From a virus: a DNA stretch of 21,598 bases. The translations under genes were made by a program, and so were the position numbers. The stretch's first letter is position 1; each line of letters begins with the position of its first letter. Location of the stretch: IMG/VR virus record IMGVR_UViG_3300005664_000119, positions 1 to 21,598 of that record; one strand, 5' to 3'. Shown here in pieces: positions 3,685-21,507 of the stretch. The notes beneath the pieces were generated by a model, which saw only the letters and a list, made by a program, of their open reading frames with translations, was not told the DNA's origin and did not search any database.

Positions 3685-4362
3685 TCATCTTTCTATAGTA
3701 GGCGAGTAACCAAAATAATCGAAATCCTCTTTATATATACCTGCTACAAACTTTTCCAATGCTGGTGTGTAATATTCTTTATATAAACTGTGATGACTTG
3801 TCATAGTCTGAACAGGCTCAACACCTAGCCATTTAAAACATTCATCTATTTTCTCAAATCTGAATATATTAATATCAAAATCAATATCGTTTGTCTCGTT
3901 GGTTATAAATGATTTTTGTGTTTCTAAGTGAGAGTCGAATAACACCAATCTGGCAAATGTGGGAAGTTTAAACACACTATATACAAATTCTTCAAAATTC
4001 ATTTTTTTATAATCTTTTGGAAGTGTTACTGGATGATTCTGAATATATGCCCACTCACTTACCAATCGTTCAAACGGATTTCTAACTACACAAAATATCT
4101 TATATTCATCAGTAAATGCATCAGGAATAATCTTAAACAGTTGGGTTATAGTTAGATGTTGTGGTGTCCTATACCACATAGATTCTAATGCGCCTTTGGT
4201 GTACATGAATTTTGATCGATCCACTGGAATATTGGTATACTTCATCGGTGATAATGAATATATATTATTCTCTGAATTCATTCCGAGCGATTGTTCTATA
4301 GAAGAACCACCCGTCTTCGGAATGTGAACAAATATAATTTTCTTATCATTACAGATAGGCAT
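3685..4362 (-). CDS. Sulfotransferase (Sulfotransfer_2-like)
   Basis: A PAPS-dependent sulfotransferase that would move a sulfuryl group onto a sugar hydroxyl. The N-terminus carries the classic 5'-phosphosulfate-binding loop in FVHIPKTGGSSIEQ (H13 to Q24 from the ATG), and the 3'-phosphate-binding motif follows as VVRNPFERLVSEW (R94-N95-P96). Both key motifs are intact. At 225 aa it has the size of a compact family member, and no membrane anchor or signal peptide is seen, unlike Golgi enzymes. I chose ATG at 4362 because every other gene here starts with ATG; an in-frame TTG at 4380 would add six residues. No TAAATA box lies upstream, so it is probably co-transcribed with the glycosyltransferase 37 bp before it. 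The substrate is unknown; a glycan on fibres or the host surface is inference. Confidence 0.85.
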   Translation of the reverse strand: MPICNDKKIIFVHIPKTGGSSIEQSLGMNSENNIYSLSPMKYTNIPVDRSKFMYTKGALESMWYRTPQHLTITQLFKIIPDAFTDEYKIFCVVRNPFERLVSEWAYIQNHPVTLPKDYKKMNFEEFVYSVFKLPTFARLVLFDSHLETQKSFITNETNDIDFDINIFRFEKIDECFKWLGVEPVQTMTSHHSLYKEYYTPALEKFVAGIYKEDFDYFGYSPTIER

Positions 4363-4399
4363 GTCTATATCTATTATCAACCTATTAGATAATCAATTT

Positions 4400-5590
4400 T
4401 TATTGAACAAAATTTATCATGTAATTTTCTATAAACGGAATTTTAACGCTACTATCTAAAAAAGGTGCAGTAAAATGGATGAAGATATCATCATCATCAT
4501 GTATCTTCGCCGGATTGACGACAGTTGCATTACCTATGACAAATCTATCACTAATCGACTGATCGATTATATCCGCAATAACCGCATAGTTGTTCATAAA
4601 TGATTGTTCTGCAAAATATTCCCCCGGCCACACAACCATCGTATCGTTCAAAATCTTGAAATGTTCTTGTATATATGTGCTATTTAAGAATGCGAACTGC
4701 CCAGCATTAAATGGCCTATAACCCTTCAAATCAGCTTTATCTTTAATATCCTGTGCTCTATACTTTAAACCATGATAAAGTGTTAAAAAACTACCAGTAT
4801 TAACTGTTGGATTATATACTGTATATATTTTATTGGTATCTAATACCCCATCAAAAATAGGGGCAACATCATTGATACATATGATATCACAGTCTAAGAA
4901 TAAAATCTTACGATATTCATTTATAATGTCCCATTCGAATATCCTTGTTTTAGCCATAGATGCAGCAATACCATCTTCGGGGGTATCAATTATATGATAT
5001 GAAATATTAAATTCCACAGGTAGGACTAGTTCTTTAATATATCCCTCAGTAACTAAATCTGTTATAACCAATACATCAAAATTTATTACACTGTTGTTTT
5101 TTATAGTCTCTAGTGAAGTTTTAAATAAATCTGCATACCCCCCGCCGAACACACTATAGTATATTAAGTTTTTCGATCCTAAATTAATTTCCGAAGTGTT
5201 ATATATATTTGAGATATCACTCATCATCTTATGTATAATGATAGCTTTATCCACATCATTATTTAAGTAGTACGGTGATTTTGTATTTATTTTAGTATTA
5301 GGTATCTCTTTCTTTCTTTTAGGAACTGTAAACAGTGCATCTTCTTTATTTGGAAAATCGAATTCCTGTTTTATTCCATTTTTAAACAACACTTCATATT
5401 TTATAGAATCATAAGAATTATATAGATTATCAGAAATCTCTAACCCGAAAACATTATTTTGTTTACATGATTTCAGATGATCTATATTTAATGAAATAGT
5501 CTTTGTCTTATTCGCGGTGTACAATACAAGATCGACAGTATTTATAAGAACACTGTCATCCAAAAGAGTTTTTAATATTGAGATTTTCAT
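4400..5590 (-). CDS. GT8-type glycosyltransferase
   Basis: A 396-aa glycosyltransferase resembling family GT8 (retaining, nucleotide-sugar dependent, GT-A fold). The catalytic region starts near residue 140 with LIYYSVFGGGY. It contains the metal-binding DxD as D233-C234-D235 in LFLDCDIICINDV. Next come F294-N295-A296-G297, the family's FNAG motif, E328-Q329 in FAEQSFMNN, and a late HFTAP (H372) in place of the usual HxxGxxKPW. Residues 1-125 precede the catalytic domain, look beta-rich and are not typical of GT8; they may dock the enzyme to a phage structure. The gene starts three bases after the stop of the 296-aa repeat gene, has no TAAATA box, and is followed by the sulfotransferase. A fibre- or host-glycan-modifying role is inferred from context. 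Donor and acceptor are unknown. Confidence 0.82.
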   Translation of the reverse strand: MKISILKTLLDDSVLINTVDLVLYTANKTKTISLNIDHLKSCKQNNVFGLEISDNLYNSYDSIKYEVLFKNGIKQEFDFPNKEDALFTVPKRKKEIPNTKINTKSPYYLNNDVDKAIIIHKMMSDISNIYNTSEINLGSKNLIYYSVFGGGYADLFKTSLETIKNNSVINFDVLVITDLVTEGYIKELVLPVEFNISYHIIDTPEDGIAASMAKTRIFEWDIINEYRKILFLDCDIICINDVAPIFDGVLDTNKIYTVYNPTVNTGSFLTLYHGLKYRAQDIKDKADLKGYRPFNAGQFAFLNSTYIQEHFKILNDTMVVWPGEYFAEQSFMNNYAVIADIIDQSISDRFVIGNATVVNPAKIHDDDDIFIHFTAPFLDSSVKIPFIENYMINFVQ

Positions 5591-11075: not shown

Positions 11076-11083
11076 TATTTACT
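11076..11083 (-). promoter_or_regulatory. AGTAAATA box before the 1284-aa gene
   Basis: AGTAAATA on the minus strand, six bases before the ATG at 11069. It contains the TAA stop of gp6. Confidence 0.55.
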
Positions 11084-12833
11084 GGATAGTGATTCTATCA
11101 GTAAAAATTTTATTGTTGAGATGAGGGAATTGAAAATCTTGTAGCAAACGAACTGAACCGATTTCTTCAACACTCTGATCAAAATATACAGAGTTCCATG
11201 CCACCATCTTCAAGCCTTCCACCGAAATACCAGTTGTGGTATTTTTAGTGTATAGTTTTTCAACACCATCTAGTTGTAAAATATCTGTATATAATTTTTG
11301 AATATTAATAGATTGACCTAGTGTATTATTTTCTTTCTTGAAAAACTCTACGATGAGGGATTCTATACTCTTTTTTATAGAAGATTCGTTTATCCTCGAA
11401 CCAGATGACCGTTCTACAACCAATTCACTATTATCTATATCATATGGATTTATCGTAGAAGACTCTGGTAAACATATGTCGAATAATATATAAACAGGAT
11501 CGACAGGAATAACATCACATGTTAACACCTTCTCTTCATCCATACTTTTTACTATTGCTGTTTTTTGTGATGGTGATAGATAACCTAATGAATCGCCTAT
11601 TATTTTCGGAACTATGAATATGTATACATTGTTAAAATTACATGCATCTGAAAATCTCAATTGATTGAATAATGCGCGACTTTCAAATTGTGGTTGGGTT
11701 AGTCCAAGATCATAGAAATATTTGAAATAAGAATCTTGATATTCGGAATTATTTTTAACCTTAACATCATGTATTATATTTGAGAAATTAGACTTCACAA
11801 AAGTCTCGAAAGATTTTGCAGTGGTCAGACTTAACTGCGATCTAAATGATCCAATAGCACTGGATTTTATAGAATTTACAGACTCTGGCTCTGTGTAATA
11901 TGTACTTGAAAATTTATTATTTATGGCTATTTTAGTTAAAGAAGAACTGGAAAGATATACTTCGGACGACACATCTGCTAATATCTCGTTCAATCTATCG
12001 GTGTTAAAAACATTCACCTTTTTATTAATGAGTGTTGATGCACCTATTTCCCCTGATTTACCTAATGATCGAAGATAGTATATTGCAACCTCATCAGAAC
12101 TTGATAATTTTTTTCCATTAATATCATCTCCAAATTTTATTTCATATCTCTTATTTTCGTTAAACCTTATTTCATATACCTTATCTAGATAACTGTTGAG
12201 AAACAACGACTGAGAACGCTTCCATTTTTCCCATACATTATTCGACTTAACATATACATCAATATTAAAAGAGTCTAATATATCAGAATCTTCTACGGTT
12301 AAAATTATAGTTTCATTAGTATTCCCCGCAGGAAATACTATAGGGAATTCTGTATAATCTCCTTGATAGAGAGTTGATAAATCTTCTATCCCTGTTATTT
12401 CTTCGGAACCACTAGTTGATTTCGTAAATGGTATATCTTCGGAAAAACTATACGTTATCCCTGCAACATTCACAGATGAATATCTGGGAATGGTATACAC
12501 TCCGACATCCATATCTCCGTTAGCGGTCAGGGTAAAATTGACACTGGCAGTCTGATGTCCAACCGGATTATATCCTAATTCTTTTACTATCTTGTTGATG
12601 TTTTCATAAATTGTCGTTTGTGAAAATTGTCCATTGACAGAGTTTTGATTTAGATAATATAAAAGCAACGAAAAACTCATCGAAATAGCATCGTTTATAC
12701 CAGCAAGATTAGAACCTTCAAAGTTCTGATCCGTGAATATCCCTGTTTGGTTTAAGCGTTCGCGTATTTTCTCCTTAATGGTAAGACCATCAAAGGCTAC
12801 ATAGGAATTTTTTGCTACAGGAAAATCGTTCAT
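11079..12833 (-). CDS. gp6: Baseplate wedge protein gp6 (gpJ-like)
   Basis: A 584-aa baseplate wedge subunit of the gp6/Baseplate_J class. In T4, gp6 dimers join neighbouring wedges and form the ring that expands on sheath contraction. The N-terminal region is the most characteristic: AFDGLTIKEKIRERLNQTG, then FTDQNFEGSNLAGI, LLYYLNQNSVN, YENINKIVKELGYNP and GHQTASVNF, which follow the pattern of T4-like gp6 proteins. Charged beta regions and a domain around 250-420 follow, and the C-terminus includes a helical segment near 480-520. It is slightly shorter than T4 gp6 (660 aa). The start has AGTAAATA five bases upstream, overlapping the stop of the 172-aa gene. gp25 is encoded divergently nearby, consistent with the wedge core. 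Confidence 0.92.
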   Translation of the reverse strand: MNDFPVAKNSYVAFDGLTIKEKIRERLNQTGIFTDQNFEGSNLAGINDAISMSFSLLLYYLNQNSVNGQFSQTTIYENINKIVKELGYNPVGHQTASVNFTLTANGDMDVGVYTIPRYSSVNVAGITYSFSEDIPFTKSTSGSEEITGIEDLSTLYQGDYTEFPIVFPAGNTNETIILTVEDSDILDSFNIDVYVKSNNVWEKWKRSQSLFLNSYLDKVYEIRFNENKRYEIKFGDDINGKKLSSSDEVAIYYLRSLGKSGEIGASTLINKKVNVFNTDRLNEILADVSSEVYLSSSSLTKIAINNKFSSTYYTEPESVNSIKSSAIGSFRSQLSLTTAKSFETFVKSNFSNIIHDVKVKNNSEYQDSYFKYFYDLGLTQPQFESRALFNQLRFSDACNFNNVYIFIVPKIIGDSLGYLSPSQKTAIVKSMDEEKVLTCDVIPVDPVYILFDICLPESSTINPYDIDNSELVVERSSGSRINESSIKKSIESLIVEFFKKENNTLGQSINIQKLYTDILQLDGVEKLYTKNTTTGISVEGLKMVAWNSVYFDQSVEEIGSVRLLQDFQFPHLNNKIFTDRITIQ

Positions 12834-13363: not shown

Positions 13364-13369
13364 AATATG

Positions 13370-13377
13370 TATTTATA
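13370..13377 (-). promoter_or_regulatory. TATAAATA box at the divergent centre, leftward
   Basis: An exact TATAAATA on the minus strand, six bases before the ATG at 13363. With the rightward CATAAATA at 13387-13394 it forms a divergent promoter-like pair only nine bases apart, in the sole intergenic gap where transcription changes direction. Confidence 0.65.
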
Positions 13378-13386
13378 TATTTACCC

Positions 13387-13394
13387 CATAAATA
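13387..13394 (+). promoter_or_regulatory. CATAAATA box at the divergent centre, rightward
   Basis: CATAAATA five bases before the ATG at 13400. It supports that ATG, not the in-frame ATG at 13367, as the gp25 start: the box would otherwise lie inside the gene. Confidence 0.65.
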
Positions 13395-13399
13395 ATTAC

Positions 13400-13870
13400 A
13401 TGATAACTATTTCAAATCTTTCCAGTAAAAAAACAGGAAAGACTTATACATATTCTGATTTAGATTTGAATTTTGAAGAAAAACAAGTATCATCGAATAC
13501 TAGAAACAATAATATTGTTGCGGGAAATGATCTAGTAGTTGCAACTGATATTGAGGCTATAAAAAATTCGATAAGAAATATACTTTTTCAGAAAAGACAT
13601 CTTTCCCCCACAGTCGGCATCAATTTGCGGAAATACATAGGTCAACCAATCTCCGAAATGCGAGCACAGTCGATAGGAGAAGAAATCGAACGAGCAATCG
13701 TTCTATACGAACCACGGGTTAAAGTTAATAAAATAATAGTGCGATACAATATTGACCAAATGACATACTTTATTGAGATGCGGTTAGATTTGGTCAATTT
13801 CTCTGAATCGTTGACGATACTAAATGCAGCATTTACAAATACTGGTGAGTTCACATTTATAAATAGGTAA
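13400..13870 (+). CDS. gp25: Baseplate wedge protein gp25 (GPW/gp25 family)
   Basis: A 156-aa gp25-like protein (GPW_gp25, also called lysozyme-like domain), a small conserved subunit holding the wedge core of contractile tails together with gp6 and gp7. Visible family features are IEAIKNSIRNILFQKRHLSP, the segment GINLRKYIGQPIS, the helix IGEEIERAIVLYEPRVKV with its EPR triplet (the hallmark of the wedge core bundle), and a beta hairpin after it. Length suits T4 gp25 (132 aa) with a short N-terminal extension carrying Lys/Thr-rich GKTYTYSDLDLNF. The start is ATG 13400; an upstream in-frame ATG at 13367 would add 11 unlikely residues and overrun the promoter-like box. Two bases separate it from the next gene. 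Confidence 0.92.
   Translation: MITISNLSSKKTGKTYTYSDLDLNFEEKQVSSNTRNNNIVAGNDLVVATDIEAIKNSIRNILFQKRHLSPTVGINLRKYIGQPISEMRAQSIGEEIERAIVLYEPRVKVNKIIVRYNIDQMTYFIEMRLDLVNFSESLTILNAAFTNTGEFTFINR
13858..13865 (+). promoter_or_regulatory. TATAAATA box before the 625-aa gene
   Basis: An exact TATAAATA seven bases before the ATG at 13873, lying within the last codons of gp25. Confidence 0.55.
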
Positions 13871-13872
13871 CA

Positions 13873-15750
13873 ATGATCACCGTCTCTCAATTATCTGGTA
13901 TTAAAAATGTAACAACTTTTACATTTCAGATTTCGCCTTCCGCAGAAGCTCCCTTGATAAATTGGGGTGATGGGACATTTTCACACACCAATACAGCATC
14001 GCATATTTACTCCAGCATTGGTCTTTATAATATATATGGTGGAGGATGTTCTACAACTTCCGCATTTCAATTAAGTGTTTATAATGGGGCATATTTTACG
14101 GATAAGATATTAGTAACGAGTCCTGCAACATCATCCATCGTATCAAATATCCACACATTTACAATAAATCTTTCCTCAAGGAACGAAATGAATACCGTTG
14201 TATTATATTCCAGTGGAAGCGATTCGGTGCCATATTCAGATGTCAGAGGTTTCTGGACACATCTTCAACCTGAGTGGTCATTTACGTTTGATGATGAAAA
14301 TATATCTGAATTAGAAATAACTGGATCGCCTGTTTATTCTGGAACATCTGTTCTGGGATATTCAGCAACATCCTCTGTAAACTATTCCGATGATATGCCA
14401 GGACATAGAAATCTATGGTTCACTGTCAAACAAACCGATAAAAATGTTCCCATAAATTCCCGTGTATTTTCTACAGTTCAACACTCTGTATGTGCCAGTA
14501 CGCCTGATAAACTAATCATAACAGCAGATGGCATAAACGATATAAATCGAATACAGTGGGCAGGTATTGATATTCCTTATGTTATAAGTGTAGGTAGTTC
14601 ACAAAATTCATCCACTAACATACTTCATTATGTCTCCGGTAATTTAACAGATATCAAATTTTTATCAAATTGTTTCGGCGTTGATACCTCATCATTTGTC
14701 TATCCGACTTGTGCAATGAATTTATTAGATTCAAATTGTAAGAAAACTGGTGGATATATATTAACTAATTTCAATCTCCCCGCATCATCATTAGCAGTGC
14801 AAACGATAACAAATAATATAGATTCCTGTAATCCTGAATATGATAAAATCGAATATACACGAACTCGTAACACACCGAGAAGCATAATTCTATCAGCGAC
14901 TGGTGTATTTAATTATAATGGTATTGATTATACACTATCTGGTACCTCCTCACCTTTTGATATTGTCGCGCTAGAGAATCGTCATGAATTTTTCAGAAAA
15001 GGGGAAGATACGACTATCTATGATGTGTTGAAACAATCATTGCCATTTGATATAGAACAATATAGCAATTTCGACACATATTTAGATACGATTGCGGGGT
15101 CGGGTGATTCTTTTGGAAAGCTGTATGATAAAATACATAATTTTTCTGATGATCATTCTGATATCGATATATGTACAGTTGATGCATTAATAGATAAATC
15201 AATTATGTTGGATGATCCTATGGACGATTTCGGATTAGAATTGCCAGAAGAACTTAGACGCATATTCAATTTTTCAACAATACCTTTACAAAAACTTATC
15301 GGATCACGATGCGTATGCAATACTAATTTTGTCGGATGTATCGGTTGTAACAATTCTAATATATGTACTATATGTAAATTCGACAAAAGAAGTAATTTAG
15401 GAAATAAAATAACACTAACCGACTATATAACCGCTGGAGTAACCGTTCTGTACAAAGAAGACGGAGGAACGATATTCAATTTTCACACAGTATCTCCTCA
15501 GATCACCAATGTATTCATGTTGCAGACATTATCAGCAGAACCGTTTTTAACCAGAGGAATAGACAACTATTGCTTTTATACATGGGACAAATCTCCTCAA
15601 AACAATCCGGTAGAAAGCGTCATCAATTACAAAGATTCTCGAAATGCACTATCTCCATCACTATCATCCAATGATGATTGGTATAGTGATAACGGTGTAA
15701 TCGAGGAAATGTTTAACTATATACTAACAAAAAATCTCATAAATAGTTAA
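13873..15750 (+). CDS. PKD-domain baseplate-type protein with a Cys cluster
   Basis: A 625-aa protein following gp25. Residues 1-75 look like a PKD domain (Ig-like): W31-G-D-G34, H44-I-Y and G50-LYNI are its signature strands. Another beta domain, with FWTHLQPEWSFTF near 115-130, follows. Residues about 370-470 are different and helical: FDTYLDTIAGSGDSFGKLYD, then DIDICTVDALID and an ELPEELRRIF helix. This recalls the helical part of tail wedge proteins of the P2 gpI/T4 gp7 kind, but I rate that similarity as weak. A Cys cluster follows at C480, C482, C489, C492, C498 and C501 (CxC-x6-CxxC-x5-CxxC), which could bind a metal. The gene is adjacent to gp25 and ends with the stop immediately before the next ATG. 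Likely a baseplate component. Confidence 0.65.
   Translation: MITVSQLSGIKNVTTFTFQISPSAEAPLINWGDGTFSHTNTASHIYSSIGLYNIYGGGCSTTSAFQLSVYNGAYFTDKILVTSPATSSIVSNIHTFTINLSSRNEMNTVVLYSSGSDSVPYSDVRGFWTHLQPEWSFTFDDENISELEITGSPVYSGTSVLGYSATSSVNYSDDMPGHRNLWFTVKQTDKNVPINSRVFSTVQHSVCASTPDKLIITADGINDINRIQWAGIDIPYVISVGSSQNSSTNILHYVSGNLTDIKFLSNCFGVDTSSFVYPTCAMNLLDSNCKKTGGYILTNFNLPASSLAVQTITNNIDSCNPEYDKIEYTRTRNTPRSIILSATGVFNYNGIDYTLSGTSSPFDIVALENRHEFFRKGEDTTIYDVLKQSLPFDIEQYSNFDTYLDTIAGSGDSFGKLYDKIHNFSDDHSDIDICTVDALIDKSIMLDDPMDDFGLELPEELRRIFNFSTIPLQKLIGSRCVCNTNFVGCIGCNNSNICTICKFDKRSNLGNKITLTDYITAGVTVLYKEDGGTIFNFHTVSPQITNVFMLQTLSAEPFLTRGIDNYCFYTWDKSPQNNPVESVINYKDSRNALSPSLSSNDDWYSDNGVIEEMFNYILTKNLINS
15738..15745 (+). 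promoter_or_regulatory. CATAAATA box before the eight-repeat gene
   Basis: CATAAATA five bases before the ATG at 15751, inside the final codons of the 625-aa gene. Confidence 0.55.
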
Positions 15751-18700
15751 ATGCTGTCATCAACATTTGATATTTTCTCTAAAGTTATTCTGGAGAAAAA
15801 CTATTCATATTCAATTCCCCAAGATAAAGAATTAATTCTTTATGATTTCTATATGTTGGTGCATCTTAATGCATTAAAGAAAGAAGGAAAGTTTCAGCCA
15901 GGAGATAAGAAGGATCATTTCGGACAAGTATCGCAGACAACTACACATTCGATGGGATTGGACCACTCGACAGAGTTTTCGTTTGAAGAAATTAAAAAAC
16001 AATTAATAGGCTATCTTCAACCAGAGTTACTGGAAGCAAGTTTGTTTTCTATATCATGTGAGCTACGACATGTTTTTGATAATAATTCACCATTAAATAT
16101 AACGGCAACGCTAGGCCCGCAGATTGCCGAGTTTTATACTAATTTAAAATATAATTATGAAAAATTGAAGAAAGTATCCCAGATAAAACGGGATGGGGAT
16201 AGTACTATCAAAGATTTAATTAATAAACGTCGCCGTAAATTTAATAAAAAATATAATATTAAAATGAAGGAGGGGGGCGCATCACGTAATACCGACTACA
16301 GAATATCTTATAAAGCACTCAAACAGACGATAGCTAAACTTAATATATCAGAAGTAGAGGTCGCAGAAATTGGTCGAAAATCGTTTTTATCCCTGCAATG
16401 GGGCGCTTCTTATGGTGGAAAGCCATGGGCAAGTATATGTGACGCATACATCAAACTATATTATGCAAAGCGTGAAGTAGACCAGATTATCTACATAGAT
16501 AATATGTATCACCAGCAACATAATACCGATACGGTTTTTAATAAACTCCAGTCATATTATAAATCAAATGCGGGTTATCGTTGGGTATTAAATGCATTAA
16601 ACTTTAAGGCAGATGTTAAAGATAATTGGGATAGAATAAAAAAAATAAAAGAAGTTGCAACAATAAAAATAAAAGATGCCTCTGGAAATGTAACAAAAGA
16701 AGTGCCTGCACTTAGAAGTATAGATCGGATGTATATTGAAATGCTGAAAGCCTCTGGAGATAGAACATGGGAACAATATTATAAAGTTGAGAAGGCTCCT
16801 CCAAAAGAAGAGGTGAAACCGAAAAAAGAACCAAAAGAAATATTCCACGATTTAGGGAAATCTTTCCAATTTCCACAGCACATGATGCCTGGAAAAGTAC
16901 AATATCAAGATACATCTTCCAACATTGAGATGAATCGTCCACATTGGAATAAGATGGCAAAGGAAGGGTTTAAAAAATTTGGTAAAATATACAATAGCAG
17001 CGGGAACGAATTGATAGCTGTGGGACCAGGAGTAAATACACCACCACATTTAATGCACTTGTTAGACATAGATTCTTTTGATCTGTTTATGCGTCTTGAT
17101 TCAGGATCGTGGAGCGGTGGCAATGAGGGGTCATCCCCCTCACACGATTATGCAATCCCTAAAGATATTTGGATAAAAAAATTCGGAAAACTTCCTAAAG
17201 AATTTGATTCTTCTGATAAAACAAAATATACTCCTAATTCCACATATGTTTCCAAGTTTATAGCGGCGGCAAAACAAACCGATTCTGACATATATAAAAA
17301 AGGATTTATATTTATTGGTAATGGTGTTTCGGGTGAAGGGTTGGTAAAAGAGATAGGAGTATCAAGTATTAACAATTGTAGTGGATATCTAGATGATGAA
17401 CTTAGTATGGTCGAAAAAACGGGCTGTCCTAATTTGTACGGAAATGCGCCTAGTAATAAATATTATTTAAAAAAATCGCATTGGGAAGATATCTTTGGAC
17501 CATTTGAAGAAATAACAGGCTATAAAGAGAAAGCTAATAAGTTTGAAGCCGTTAAAAAATATTTTATAAAGGTTGCGAAAGAATTTAAAGATGAATCGTC
17601 GTTTGAGGAAGCGACTGCTGGCTCTCCAGATTTTTGGGTTTCATTGGGAAACTCTATACCTAAACATCTGGCAGACCCAGAAGATATACAAAATGGTGCT
17701 ACAATCACATTATCTAATATTATTGGAGGAGATGATCTCTCTCTTATAAAAAAGATATCGAAAAATATTGGACGCATCGAACATTCTAATAGTGGTTATT
17801 GTATAAGTGATTGGGGTGGTGATGGCATATTAGGAGCAAAAGAAGGTTATCAATATGTCATGAAAAAAACATTGTGGGAAAGTTTATTTGGAAAATTTAA
17901 ACCATCCGAAGACATCGAAGATGATAAGTTACCGAAAAATGATAAAATAACTCCTGAAATTATAAAGAAGTATAGAGACAATGATAATGTTGGTTATACC
18001 GTGGCAACTCATAAGTTTGCTATCCCATCTCTTCTTAATGCTCATCACTTAGGATTTGGACAGAACGTTGCAGAGGATATACATGCCGGGGTATTTCCCA
18101 AGAGCCTATTCGATAAAGAGGCGTTCGGTAAAATATATAATAGTGGATCATGGGAAACCCTCAACAATGAGGATGATGTATCGTTCGCATATCGTGTTTG
18201 GATGAAAGATAAATATTGGCAAGAGCTATTCGGTGATAAGAAAAAGACTAGAGAAAGTAAGACCAAATCAAAGGAATTTACCGAAAAGGAAATATCAGAT
18301 TTCCATGCCTTATTAGAATATGGTGAGAGTCATTACGGGGGAGTAGGAACGAATTGGCCGTATGTAGGAACGATAAGAGATGTCAAACAATTGTACGAGT
18401 CTGGTAAATTTAAAAAAGATATTTTTGTCAAACCTGCACTAGTATCATCTCCCATGATGTATACAATGAAAAAAGGCGGTGATTTATGGATTAAACTCAG
18501 ATCGTTTGATAATGTGACTGATCTAGATCAACCCGTTATCATGTGGATAGACATCTGGAAAAAATATTTCGGTGAGCATAAACCCGTTGTTGCAGAGAAG
18601 AAAAATGTTATTACTCCAGAAGTAATAAAAAAATATCAAAATCTTGCAAAAAGTGGGCATAAACAGTTAGCTTCGATTCCTAACGTAAAAGAATATATAG

Positions 18701-19575
18701 TATTATATGTTGGAACCGCTGTTGATGTTCTCGGTGCAATAAAAGACGGCATATTTACACAAGAATTAGTAGAAGATTATATGTTCGGGACTTGGATGAC
18801 GGGCGATAATTGGTCGGGAGTATCAAGCATGAAAAAACTTGAGGTCGATTTAAGTCCTGGGACTACTATATGGATGAAAGATTATGCATGGACCGAATTG
18901 TTCGGTCCTATCAAAAATTTAATAGACTCTACAACTTCGGACATATCTCCTGGCATTAAACGCAAATTTAAAAAGTTGGCAAAAATTGAAAATGCACTCC
19001 CGTATCTCAAGGACAGTAAAACAAAAGACGGGGAACAATTAATTTATATCGGAAAGGGTAGCCTTCGAGATAGTGGATTTCCTATGAAGTCTGTGAAACC
19101 GAAAGATATATATGGTGGTTCTTCGGGGGCTTCTGAATTTTCAAACAATATGCTTGGAACATCCACATCATACCATTATTTTATAACTGCAAAGAAATGG
19201 AAGGAAATATTTGACGAGGAACCACCTACAACAACTAAAGAAGACGATTCTAAATCTAATATCAAGGTGTCGGGCGAAGTGTTGTTACAATTTAGTAACT
19301 TGGCAAGAGAAGGATATAAAAAAGGACACTACAAAAATCAACAGGGTGATAACCTGATTTATATCGGAAAAGGACCGATAGGAGAGAAGGGGCTACCAAA
19401 TACAAACATCTACTATAACATTTATGCAATCGCATCCGATACTAAAACGGTTGAGGGTTATTATATTTTATCGGGTCACTGGTCGGGTGATAATAGAAAA
19501 AAAGACTATTTTATAACTGCCACCGATTGGACCGCACTGTTCGGTATTATACCTCCCAACAATCTCAACATTTAA
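15751..19575 (+). CDS. 1274-aa protein: leader, unknown N-domain, eight WxxxFG repeats
   Basis: I do not recognise this protein. Its first 15 residues (MLSSTFDIFSKVILE) share the leader of the next four genes. Residues about 20-300 form an alpha-rich domain including GGKPWASICDAY (222-233) and IDNMYHQQHNTDTVFNK (249-265), which looks conserved in character. A Lys/Pro/Glu linker (about 349-363) leads to eight degenerate repeats from about 395 to 1265. Each ends in W-x-x-x-F-[G/D]: W474, W578, W709, W823, W936, W1047, W1150 and W1260. Repeats often carry a LIYIGKG- or FIGNG-type strand and an SG-x-W-[S/T]-GDN-like loop. No catalytic site, signal peptide or membrane helix is seen. An internal virion protein or a large adhesive or structural filament are both possible; the leader favours the former. 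Confidence 0.75.
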   Translation: MLSSTFDIFSKVILEKNYSYSIPQDKELILYDFYMLVHLNALKKEGKFQPGDKKDHFGQVSQTTTHSMGLDHSTEFSFEEIKKQLIGYLQPELLEASLFSISCELRHVFDNNSPLNITATLGPQIAEFYTNLKYNYEKLKKVSQIKRDGDSTIKDLINKRRRKFNKKYNIKMKEGGASRNTDYRISYKALKQTIAKLNISEVEVAEIGRKSFLSLQWGASYGGKPWASICDAYIKLYYAKREVDQIIYIDNMYHQQHNTDTVFNKLQSYYKSNAGYRWVLNALNFKADVKDNWDRIKKIKEVATIKIKDASGNVTKEVPALRSIDRMYIEMLKASGDRTWEQYYKVEKAPPKEEVKPKKEPKEIFHDLGKSFQFPQHMMPGKVQYQDTSSNIEMNRPHWNKMAKEGFKKFGKIYNSSGNELIAVGPGVNTPPHLMHLLDIDSFDLFMRLDSGSWSGGNEGSSPSHDYAIPKDIWIKKFGKLPKEFDSSDKTKYTPNSTYVSKFIAAAKQTDSDIYKKGFIFIGNGVSGEGLVKEIGVSSINNCSGYLDDELSMVEKTGCPNLYGNAPSNKYYLKKSHWEDIFGPFEEITGYKEKANKFEAVKKYFIKVAKEFKDESSFEEATAGSPDFWVSLGNSIPKHLADPEDIQNGATITLSNIIGGDDLSLIKKISKNIGRIEHSNSGYCISDWGGDGILGAKEGYQYVMKKTLWESLFGKFKPSEDIEDDKLPKNDKITPEIIKKYRDNDNVGYTVATHKFAIPSLLNAHHLGFGQNVAEDIHAGVFPKSLFDKEAFGKIYNSGSWETLNNEDDVSFAYRVWMKDKYWQELFGDKKKTRESKTKSKEFTEKEISDFHALLEYGESHYGGVGTNWPYVGTIRDVKQLYESGKFKKDIFVKPALVSSPMMYTMKKGGDLWIKLRSFDNVTDLDQPVIMWIDIWKKYFGEHKPVVAEKKNVITPEVIKKYQNLAKSGHKQLASIPNVKEYIVLYVGTAVDVLGAIKDGIFTQELVEDYMFGTWMTGDNWSGVSSMKKLEVDLSPGTTIWMKDYAWTELFGPIKNLIDSTTSDISPGIKRKFKKLAKIENALPYLKDSKTKDGEQLIYIGKGSLRDSGFPMKSVKPKDIYGGSSGASEFSNNMLGTSTSYHYFITAKKWKEIFDEEPPTTTKEDDSKSNIKVSGEVLLQFSNLAREGYKKGHYKNQQGDNLIYIGKGPIGEKGLPNTNIYYNIYAIASDTKTVEGYYILSGHWSGDNRKKDYFITATDWTALFGIIPPNNLNI
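16933..19545 (+). repeat. Eight degenerate protein repeats, about 103-131 aa each
   Basis: Coding repeats spanning residues 395-1265. The last conserved element is W-x3-F-G (WIKKFG, WEDIFG, WESLFG, WQELFG, WKKYFG, WTELFG, WKEIFD, WTALFG). Distances between successive Trp are 104, 131, 114, 113, 111, 103 and 110 residues. Several repeats start with a helix of the type EVIKKYQNLAKSG. Copies share little DNA identity, so the array is old. Confidence 0.8.
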
Positions 19576-19592: not shown

Positions 19593-19913
19593 ATGACAAC
19601 AGAATTTGATACATTTATAAATAATATATTACAGGAATACTTTATTGCCGAACCTGACTTTCAAAATAAAGTTAATAATGCAATCTCAGGAACCAAGGTT
19701 AAATTGGAAAAATTCAATCTTGTAACTCAAGTAACCTTGTCGAGAACGGATGCACCAAAGGTTTTAAAAGCATTGAAAAATTCAAAGGTGATTTGTTTCT
19801 ATGAATATCCTGTCAATGATCCTGCACGTCTTTTATTATTTAAAAATGTCCAAGATGTGAAACGACTTGTCCGTGAATATCCCGGTGCTCTTGATGGTTT
19901 TGCTAAATATTAA
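19593..19913 (+). CDS. Unrecognised 106-aa protein with the shared leader
   Basis: A 106-aa protein starting MTTEFDTFINNILQE, close to the leader of its neighbours: F-D-x-F-x-x-x-I-[L/V], then L13-Q14-E15 as a [L/I/V]-x-E triplet. After the leader, a small alpha/beta body contains LVTQVTLSRTDAPKVLKALK, a beta strand with ICFYEYPVNDPA, and a C-terminal helix (VQDVKRLVREYPGAL). No signal peptide, Cys or membrane segment. The family is unknown. If the leader is a head-targeting peptide, the mature protein would have about 91 residues. It lies 17 bp after the eight-repeat gene and 5 bp before the next leader-bearing gene. Confidence 0.7.
   Translation: MTTEFDTFINNILQEYFIAEPDFQNKVNNAISGTKVKLEKFNLVTQVTLSRTDAPKVLKALKNSKVICFYEYPVNDPARLLLFKNVQDVKRLVREYPGALDGFAKY
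19902..19909 (+). promoter_or_regulatory. GCTAAATA box before the 240-aa gene
   Basis: GCTAAATA nine bases before the ATG at 19919, the longest spacing seen, inside the end of the 106-aa gene. It is a weaker match than the others. Confidence 0.35.
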
Positions 19914-19918
19914 TACAT

Positions 19919-20641
19919 ATGACTCCCTTGTTTGATAAATTTATATCCCATATTGTTGTTCAAGAAAGTGTGACATTTTCCGTTGCAGATAGTACAACAA
20001 CTGTTGCAACCCTTGGAGACTTGGCATGGATTCTTAATAATCAATTTCACCAGTTCATGTTGAAAAACTTGAACATACCTCTTGAAAAATATCCTGACGA
20101 ACTTCGGGGTGAAAAGATCGTGGTTGATGGTGATAGTGACTATTTCGGCCCCGAAGGAGTCCTGAGCATATATACAGATAAGGTGCCCGAAGAACTCACA
20201 ACTAAATTGATTCAAATGATTTCTTACTATGTCGGGGAAAACAATGCCGAAGTTCTTAATAAACCATATGTGGAAACTTCGGGTAGTCGTAAAGGAGATG
20301 TATGGAGGCTTCGTGTAAAGGTAAATCCAGTTACGGATAATCCTCCTGAAATGAACCTCTCTAATCTAAATGCAAGAACATTGATGTGTGATATTCTCAA
20401 CTATTCTGATGATGTGATGACGGAATATCCATCCATTCAGGCAAATGAATTATTAATGAAGATTGAACAAATCGAAGACAATGATTATCAACTTGATAAA
20501 GCCGTTCGCCCCGAAACACAGGATGGTAATCACTATCAGGGAGGTCTTTCCAAAGAACGTATAAAACAGGTACTCGATAATCTTAAAGCTATTTGCGAAT
20601 GGGCACTGGAACGAGATTATACATATATTCAACTTAGTTGA
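19919..20641 (+). CDS. Unrecognised 240-aa protein with the shared leader
   Basis: A 240-aa protein starting MTPLFDKFISHIVVQES. Its leader matches the 106-aa and 1274-aa proteins at F-D-x-F and ends in V14-Q15-E16, followed by Ser. The body includes LGDLAWILNNQFHQF, an acidic-aromatic stretch DGDSDYFGPEGVLSIY, DVWRLRVKVNPVTD, and a C-terminal helix KERIKQVLDNLKAICEWALE. No enzyme motif that I can name, and no membrane segment or signal peptide. Function unknown. It ends with TGA and lies 5 bp from the gene before and 14 bp from the gene after, within a compact rightward operon of leader-bearing genes. Confidence 0.7.
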   Translation: MTPLFDKFISHIVVQESVTFSVADSTTTVATLGDLAWILNNQFHQFMLKNLNIPLEKYPDELRGEKIVVDGDSDYFGPEGVLSIYTDKVPEELTTKLIQMISYYVGENNAEVLNKPYVETSGSRKGDVWRLRVKVNPVTDNPPEMNLSNLNARTLMCDILNYSDDVMTEYPSIQANELLMKIEQIEDNDYQLDKAVRPETQDGNHYQGGLSKERIKQVLDNLKAICEWALERDYTYIQLS

Positions 20642-20655: not shown

Positions 20656-21507
20656 ATGACATTCCAAGAGCTTTATAAATTTCTCATAAAAGAAGATGAT
20701 GGGATCGAGAATATCGAACTCAAGGGCGATTGGGAATCTTCTAAACTCCATAAATATGATCGTGCATCTGTGGGTATTCTCAAAAATAAGAATTCCTTGG
20801 AACGCATAAAAAATAAATGGTCAAAGCTCGAACATCCTATTGACATCTATATTGCCAAAGGACCAGAGATATCCAAATTCTATGAACTTGGTCGTGTTGA
20901 TTCCTATTTTGTTCGCGATAAGATGAAACTTGATATTCCGTACAATGAAGATAACATCACCCTAATATTTACAAACAATATGGGAGATGAAAAGGTACCT
21001 CTCACCCCTTGGATTATGGCACACAGATTCGGCCATGCATTTTCCCGTGATACAGTTACAAGGAATGGTTCAGATTATTTCTGGAGGGAGATAAAAAAAA
21101 CAGTGAATAAGCTATTCGACGAAATACTTGGTATTGCATATGGTCAAAAACTAAGCATCAGCGATCCTTACTCTAGAACAAATCAAAAGATAAAAAGAGA
21201 ACTCGGCCATGCACTCGGAACATTTAAATCTGCAAGAGACAAAAATATAAGAAATGATGATGAATTCATTAATGAGTTAATTGCACAATATATTATAAAC
21301 GGAAAGATTACATTGAATACCAAACTTCCGAATATTCTTCCTATAAAAACTGCATGGGGCCGTGTAGACGGTTATCCTTTAAGAAGAAATCTATCTCAGG
21401 ATCAAAAGGACGAATTGGAATATACATTTGAACTATATGAGAATATGCTCAACAATGATATTGATACAATATTCACATCCAATATCGGACACATATTTGT
21501 AATGTAA
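20656..21507 (+). CDS. Protease-like 283-aa protein with HRxGH in place of HExxH
   Basis: A 283-aa protein with the leader MTFQELYKFLIKE (I11-K12-E13 triplet). The central segment TPWIMAHRFGHAF places H123-R124-F125-G126-H127 in a helix, like the zinc-binding HExxH of metallopeptidases but with Arg for the catalytic Glu. About 80 residues later E207 in FINELIAQYI sits where some such families have a third ligand. So this is either a metallopeptidase-like fold that binds metal without standard catalysis, or an unrelated His-rich helix. Strands around ITLIFTNNMGD precede the motif. No signal peptide or transmembrane segment. The enzyme-like reading is tentative; the motif itself is directly visible. 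It lies in the operon of leader-bearing genes. Confidence 0.7.
   Translation: MTFQELYKFLIKEDDGIENIELKGDWESSKLHKYDRASVGILKNKNSLERIKNKWSKLEHPIDIYIAKGPEISKFYELGRVDSYFVRDKMKLDIPYNEDNITLIFTNNMGDEKVPLTPWIMAHRFGHAFSRDTVTRNGSDYFWREIKKTVNKLFDEILGIAYGQKLSISDPYSRTNQKIKRELGHALGTFKSARDKNIRNDDEFINELIAQYIINGKITLNTKLPNILPIKTAWGRVDGYPLRRNLSQDQKDELEYTFELYENMLNNDIDTIFTSNIGHIFVM

Follow-up and report, generated by a model that had tools for sequence, protein, structure and literature searches.

Here, we report that a 1274-amino acid protein of an uncultured T4-like phage is probably an internal head protein of the T4 kind, which would be packaged into the head, trimmed by the prohead protease and ejected with the DNA, carrying an array of host-binding domains with it; we put the probability of this whole chain, as read from the sequence, at about 0.6. 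The protein is encoded on the plus strand at positions 15751-19575 of the window, i.e., the whole 21,598-nucleotide stretch analyzed (IMG/VR record IMGVR_UViG_3300005664_000119, positions 1 to 21,598), and consists of an N-terminal tag, an N-domain, a Lys/Pro linker and eight repeats ending in WxxxF[G/D]. Capsid-targeted internal proteins are already known as a class, and internal head proteins are among the earliest phage products that meet the host; outside T4 and giant phages, few have been described to our knowledge. In the literature searched, which included excerpts of PMC3012670, PMC9026906, PMC5694885 and PMC5512222, no title or abstract describes the family of the window protein.

Briefly, residues 1-15 would direct the protein into the prohead core as a capsid-targeting sequence, and the gp21-type S77 protease of the phage would cut after I-L-E15. 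The mature protein would remain in the DNA-filled head and leave with the DNA on ejection. The basic, conserved N-domain may be the constant part, serving for core contact, for DNA contact or as an enzyme, and the eight-domain array would be the variable part, offering multivalent binding of host targets. That the protein is packaged in the head seems quite probable from these sequence features; its ejection and its host targets are further steps that we infer.

Like T4 IPI, IPII and IPIII (and Alt), the window protein has a short N-terminal tag in which paired aromatics are followed by L/I-x-E (PMC9026906 and PMC3012670, excerpts), and, as with the T4 internal proteins, the tag is common to otherwise unrelated genes and is accompanied by a gp21-type protease, here in the sister phage. 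Unlike those proteins, it is far larger (1274 amino acids), combines a conserved N-domain with a repeat array and is known from sequence alone: the array and its fast divergence, the tag and its enrichment, the domain with its different arrays, and the protease and capsid protein of the sister phage are computed, while packaging, cleavage, ejection and binding are what we infer from them.

The N-terminal tag and its predicted cleavage site

The window protein starts with MLSSTFDIFSKVILE, with I-L-E at positions 13-15. In excerpts of PMC9026906, the T4 internal proteins are described as carrying N-terminal propeptides of 10-19 residues, with gp21 cutting after L/I-x-E; targeting of IPIII depends mainly on residues 4 and 7, and its processing on residues 8 and 10. 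Residues 1-15 (15751-15795, plus strand) resemble such a capsid-targeting sequence, with an L/I-x-E protease site at its end, and by the T4 rule a prohead-protease cut is predicted after E15. A propeptide-like stretch of the T4 length is thus present, purely as a feature of the amino acid sequence.

We scanned for a strict tag pattern (an aromatic residue, an aromatic or Leu three residues on, then L/I-x-E, within the first 24 residues), which was drawn up after these sequences had been inspected. The scan covered ORFs of at least 90 amino acids in the window and L002, as well as in the first 50.9 kb of the sister contig (G001) and the first 6.3 kb of L036; the remaining parts of G001 and L036, which look unrelated, were left out. 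The pattern stands at the start of 20 of the 69 ORFs, compared with a mean of 2.2 and a maximum of 8 in 2000 residue shuffles and with 34 of 2367 internal windows. Two of the 20 matches, both gp6-like, are probably false, and the repeat protein of the sister contig escapes the pattern, having L-L-E and no aromatic pair. As a control, nine of 174 T4 ORFs (147.0 of 168.9 kb scanned) matched, including all three of IPI, IPII and IPIII; Alt was missed. Genes on the opposite strand lack the tag except for one doubtful gp6-like match. Tag-like starts are common to many otherwise unrelated genes of these phages, as judged by sequence pattern. Downstream of the window protein, on the same strand, a 106-amino acid gene (19593-19913) has the tag MTTEFDTFINNILQE, a 240-amino acid gene (19919-20641) has the tag-like start MTPLFDKFISHIVVQE with V-x-E, outside the strict pattern, and a 283-amino acid gene (20656-21507) has the tag MTFQELYKFLIKE. 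One of the tagged neighbours in the sister phage encodes a GNAT acetyltransferase.

The same site recurs in front of related N-domains. Of 28 non-giant occurrences of the N-domain, 23 have an L/I-x-E motif at most 14 residues ahead of the domain core; the background rate is 269 of 2697 windows (10%), and none of seven giant polyvalent-type proteins has the motif there (Fisher p 1.2e-4, with the giant versus non-giant split made after looking). Five of the 28 non-giant N-domains lie inside longer proteins (L002, L011, the second copy of L018, L038, L048). The five lacking the site are those of L016, L018 (both copies), L037 and L046; four of them (L016, L018 twice, L046) are on S77-bearing contigs, which counts against our preferred explanation.

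Eight WxxxF[G/D] repeats and the predicted fold of one unit

The first-pass annotation had placed eight diverged repeats at residues 395-1265, and this holds, with the mapping to positions 16933-19545. Behind the Lys/Pro-rich linker (residues 347-392, 16789-16926), we delimit the units, all on the plus strand, as R1 (residues 393-482, 16927-17196), R2 (493-586, 17227-17508), R3 (598-717, 17542-17901), R4 (732-831, 17944-18243), R5 (843-944, 18277-18582), R6 (954-1055, 18610-18915), R7 (1066-1158, 18946-19224) and R8 (1172-1268, 19264-19554). The units are 90-120 residues long, and each of the eight closes, as annotated, with W-x-x-x-F-[G/D], at W474, 578, 709, 823, 936, 1047, 1150 and 1260, i.e., with spacings of 104, 131, 114, 113, 111, 103 and 110 residues. 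The glycine-rich segments also described were recovered in part: IGNG/IGKG occurs in R2, R7 and R8, and SGxWxG[GD]N is whole only in R1 and R8.

An HMM built from the repeats of two relatives only gave 14.8-32.7 bits on seven of the eight window repeats, compared with at most 7.4 in 200 shuffled arrays; in leave-one-out scoring within the window, seven of the eight exceeded the best of 500 shuffles. Because seven of eight repeats score above shuffles in both hold-out tests, the similarity is not due to chance. R5 is marginal and fails both (-0.7 bits with the relatives' HMM; 7.8 versus 13.1 in leave-one-out), and is a probable repeat by its position and its WxxxFG end. No tandem repeat was seen at the DNA level across the array, and the copies must therefore be old and diverged. 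Past residue 392 the protein has five L/I-x-E sites (708, 854, 881, 1006 and 1210), all within repeats and none in the linkers between them. Cleavage of the array between repeats by the prohead protease was rejected on this ground, and chopping into single units is probably not what happens.

The structure of a single unit, R8, was predicted with AlphaFold2 from 19 aligned repeats (mean pLDDT 83.0, pTM 0.79). The model runs from a helix through a strand pair, short helices and a second strand pair to a closing helix that bears WxxxFG. Comparison of a one-repeat model with known folds, a check proposed with the original annotation, gave a confident fold and no solved match: the best Foldseek hit among solved structures had E 1.2, and VIA-align returned one chain (Z 2.3, 3.3 Å rmsd over 58 residues). 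The repeat is possibly a new fold, as far as this model goes. The absence of a named repeat family was borne out by Pfam, PHROG, PDB sequence and fold searches: the window protein matches no Pfam family up to E 1, PHROG matches over the repeats are weak (best 0.13), and no PDB sequence is significant (best E 0.26). Nothing in the phage collection matches the array significantly; its best hit, between R3 and MT838079 at E 0.2, was set aside.

In IMG/VR, two other contigs carry relatives of the whole window protein; a search with the repeat region returned G001 again and only that, and pattern scans reach close relatives only. A profile from the window repeats finds four repeats at 27 bits or more in G001/L003 (shuffles reach 6.8) and one at 15.6 bits in L002, the remaining copies in both relatives being near noise. 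The suggested profile search thus recovered repeats in two relatives, and a profile from the 15 repeats of our first alignment found no further protein in the ORFs of 54 sequences. The earlier reading, in which copies of a single small domain follow a Lys/Pro linker and an unrelated N-domain, is upheld, in that a single repeat folds confidently, with R5 individually unproven; it had missed the tag resembling a capsid-targeting sequence, the wide spread of the N-domain family and the fact that arrays are exchanged.

The N-domain and PHROG 20946

The N-domain (residues 16-346, 15796-16788, plus strand) is mostly helical, with a pI of 9.4. Its family occupies 45 IMG/VR loci (near-identical contigs counted) and two neighbouring genes of the 595-kb phage LR756511. 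PHROG 20946, which carries no function annotation, is matched by all 32 aligned members (window E 3.7e-8), and Pfam and NCBIfam gave only weak, single-member matches over these 32. The predicted model (pLDDT 85.2, pTM 0.82) is helical except for one strand pair; it has no solved match, and four unnamed viral models at probability 1.00, with E at best 0.009, do not supply a known fold. None of 45 pattern matches in cellular genomes encodes a relative. As far as we searched, the link from PHROG 20946 to capsid tags, repeat arrays and giant proteins is drawn here.

The N-domain also occurs within phage proteins that are 2 to 3.6 thousand residues long, and one of these contains a GNAT domain. This embedding, together with the tagged GNAT neighbour, recalls the polyvalent proteins (Iyer et al. 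2017, PMC5512222, excerpts). Unlike those, which combine several distinct effector or LPD domains per chain, the window protein has one conserved domain, repeats and a tag, and no Pfam domain. Two side observations concern copy number: L018:4153-8118 encodes a single protein with two N-domain copies, and the N-domain genes of LR756511 (414037-430894, L004) are adjacent paralogues, one of which matches KOW; the S77 protease is matched twice in that phage. In L036:5968-6171, an N-domain gene ends after 67 amino acids and is followed by unrelated-looking genes, pointing to either a broken gene or a chimeric contig.

Different arrays behind one domain

Identity between the window and G001 is 29.5% in the array, 64.1% in the N-domain and 37.4-84.0% in nine neighbouring genes; of the parts of the locus compared, the WxxxFG array is conserved least. 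Different C-terminal arrays sit behind the one N-domain: WxxxFG repeats in the window, G001 and L002; KOW matches in L013 (1.3e-18) and LR756511; GTWxDGxW repeats, matched by no Pfam model, in L019, L032 (by eye) and L007 (from the array start); and other repeats in L022. In 15 of 19 N-domain proteins, the C-terminal part self-aligns above all 30 shuffles; in the other four (L006, L026, L016 and L041) it does not. The KOW arrays of L013 and L004 occupy the same place behind the same N-domain as the WxxxFG array, but KOW repeats match Pfam while the WxxxFG repeats give no KOW/SH3 profile match, and the modelled unit is a helix-and-strand domain.

The repeat protein of L002 follows another module in one fused chain, and the tag-like stretch EESFKDHFLQLISE lies at the joint. 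This leading module also precedes, again as a fusion, a different protein in L036 (1.6e-12) and a GNAT protein in G001 (7.5e-9); what is the cargo in L036 stands in L002 as a gene of its own, with a tag-like start and 67% identity. The joints of L002 and L036 are tag-like, that of G001 not clearly so; tags may, by this sequence pattern, be recombination joints. The three fusions (L002:5311-8496, L036:2650-5154 and L003:12382-13404) carry three cargos in three phages. Separately, L003:1983-3113 (minus strand) encodes a 376-amino acid protein with a tag at its start and the tag-like stretch DSFTNFVNTVLTES in its second half, as if two packaged units had been fused. Tag-like helices are also seen at the extreme C terminus of two proteins, ESFKQHFLNYTKKLIN in L002:5311-8496 and FSSMFEQYVKNLL in L003:9707-11698.

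Protease, gene context and alternative readings

An S77 (gp21-type) prohead protease (PF03420, 3e-18) is encoded on the sister contig G001. That the window phage has one is taken from this contig; no protease was seen in the window itself, a 21.6-kb fragment. The protease occurs in 11 of 33 further records (10 above the curated cut-off) and in none of eight giant-protein contigs (L012, L020, L025, L027, L028, L029, L035, L039), an absence that is weak, as the records are often fragments. G001 also encodes a gp23-related capsid protein, whose first 130 residues contain a single L/I-x-E that ends at residue 75.

The tag and protease logic would be identical for a prohead core or scaffold-like protein, which would enter the head and act in assembly (size, DNA packing), its repeats touching capsid or DNA, with no delivery to the host. 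A basic N-domain suits such a role, and T4 core proteins likewise have L/I-x-E sites (PMC9026906, excerpts). However, the scaffold-like gene of G001 has 14 such motifs in 296 residues against the five past residue 392 here, the array has diverged beyond all neighbours compared, and the N-domain also occurs in giant polyvalent-type proteins, a class thought to be injected (PMC5512222, excerpts); we regard a pure assembly role as unlikely. The gene order speaks against our preferred reading: the window protein adjoins baseplate genes in a T4-type context, namely a gp25-like wedge gene (13367-13870, plus strand) and a gp6-like wedge gene (11079-12833, minus strand), and a lectin-like gene is close by, all of which would suit a structural tail or baseplate protein with adhesin- or fibre-like repeats. 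Such a protein would not be expected to bear a tag that is spread over unrelated genes and is missing from the opposite-strand genes save one doubtful gp6-like match, nor to have its tagged N-domain form go with S77-bearing phages, and we find this assignment improbable.

Invariant or nearly invariant polar residues of the N-domain across 32 members, including D32, E104, R106, H107, D250, Q256, H257, N258 and K265, make an enzyme possible. If it were the chief effector, the repeats would merely position it on a substrate; yet it matches no solved enzyme fold, and we think this quite unlikely. For the internal head protein with a host-binding array that we prefer, one further point is adverse: the repeats are not uniformly basic (pI 5.3-9.5). 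Only tentatively do we extend the proposal to PHROG 20946 as a constant head-targeted, protease-released delivery domain with swappable tandem arrays in many T4-like and giant phages, the tag/cleavage site being the recombination joint and the arrays diversifying against host targets.

If the internal head protein reading is true, packaged proteins could be picked out among uncultured phages by a simple tag plus PHROG 20946, a domain of unknown function would gain a testable role, and the WxxxFG repeat would offer a small domain with no known fold match. Counter-defence binders might then be sought in arrays that change fast behind a constant domain.

Some neighbours in the window deserve mention on their own. 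The 625-amino acid gene directly upstream (13873-15750) is found in four of seven related records and has no match in 50,697 phage records. On the minus strand, a 918-amino acid protein (238-2994) has a laminin-G-like lectin domain (PF13385), and a sulfotransferase (3685-4380; PF03567, 9e-16) and a family-8 glycosyltransferase (4400-5590; 2.5e-7) lie among the tail-side genes.
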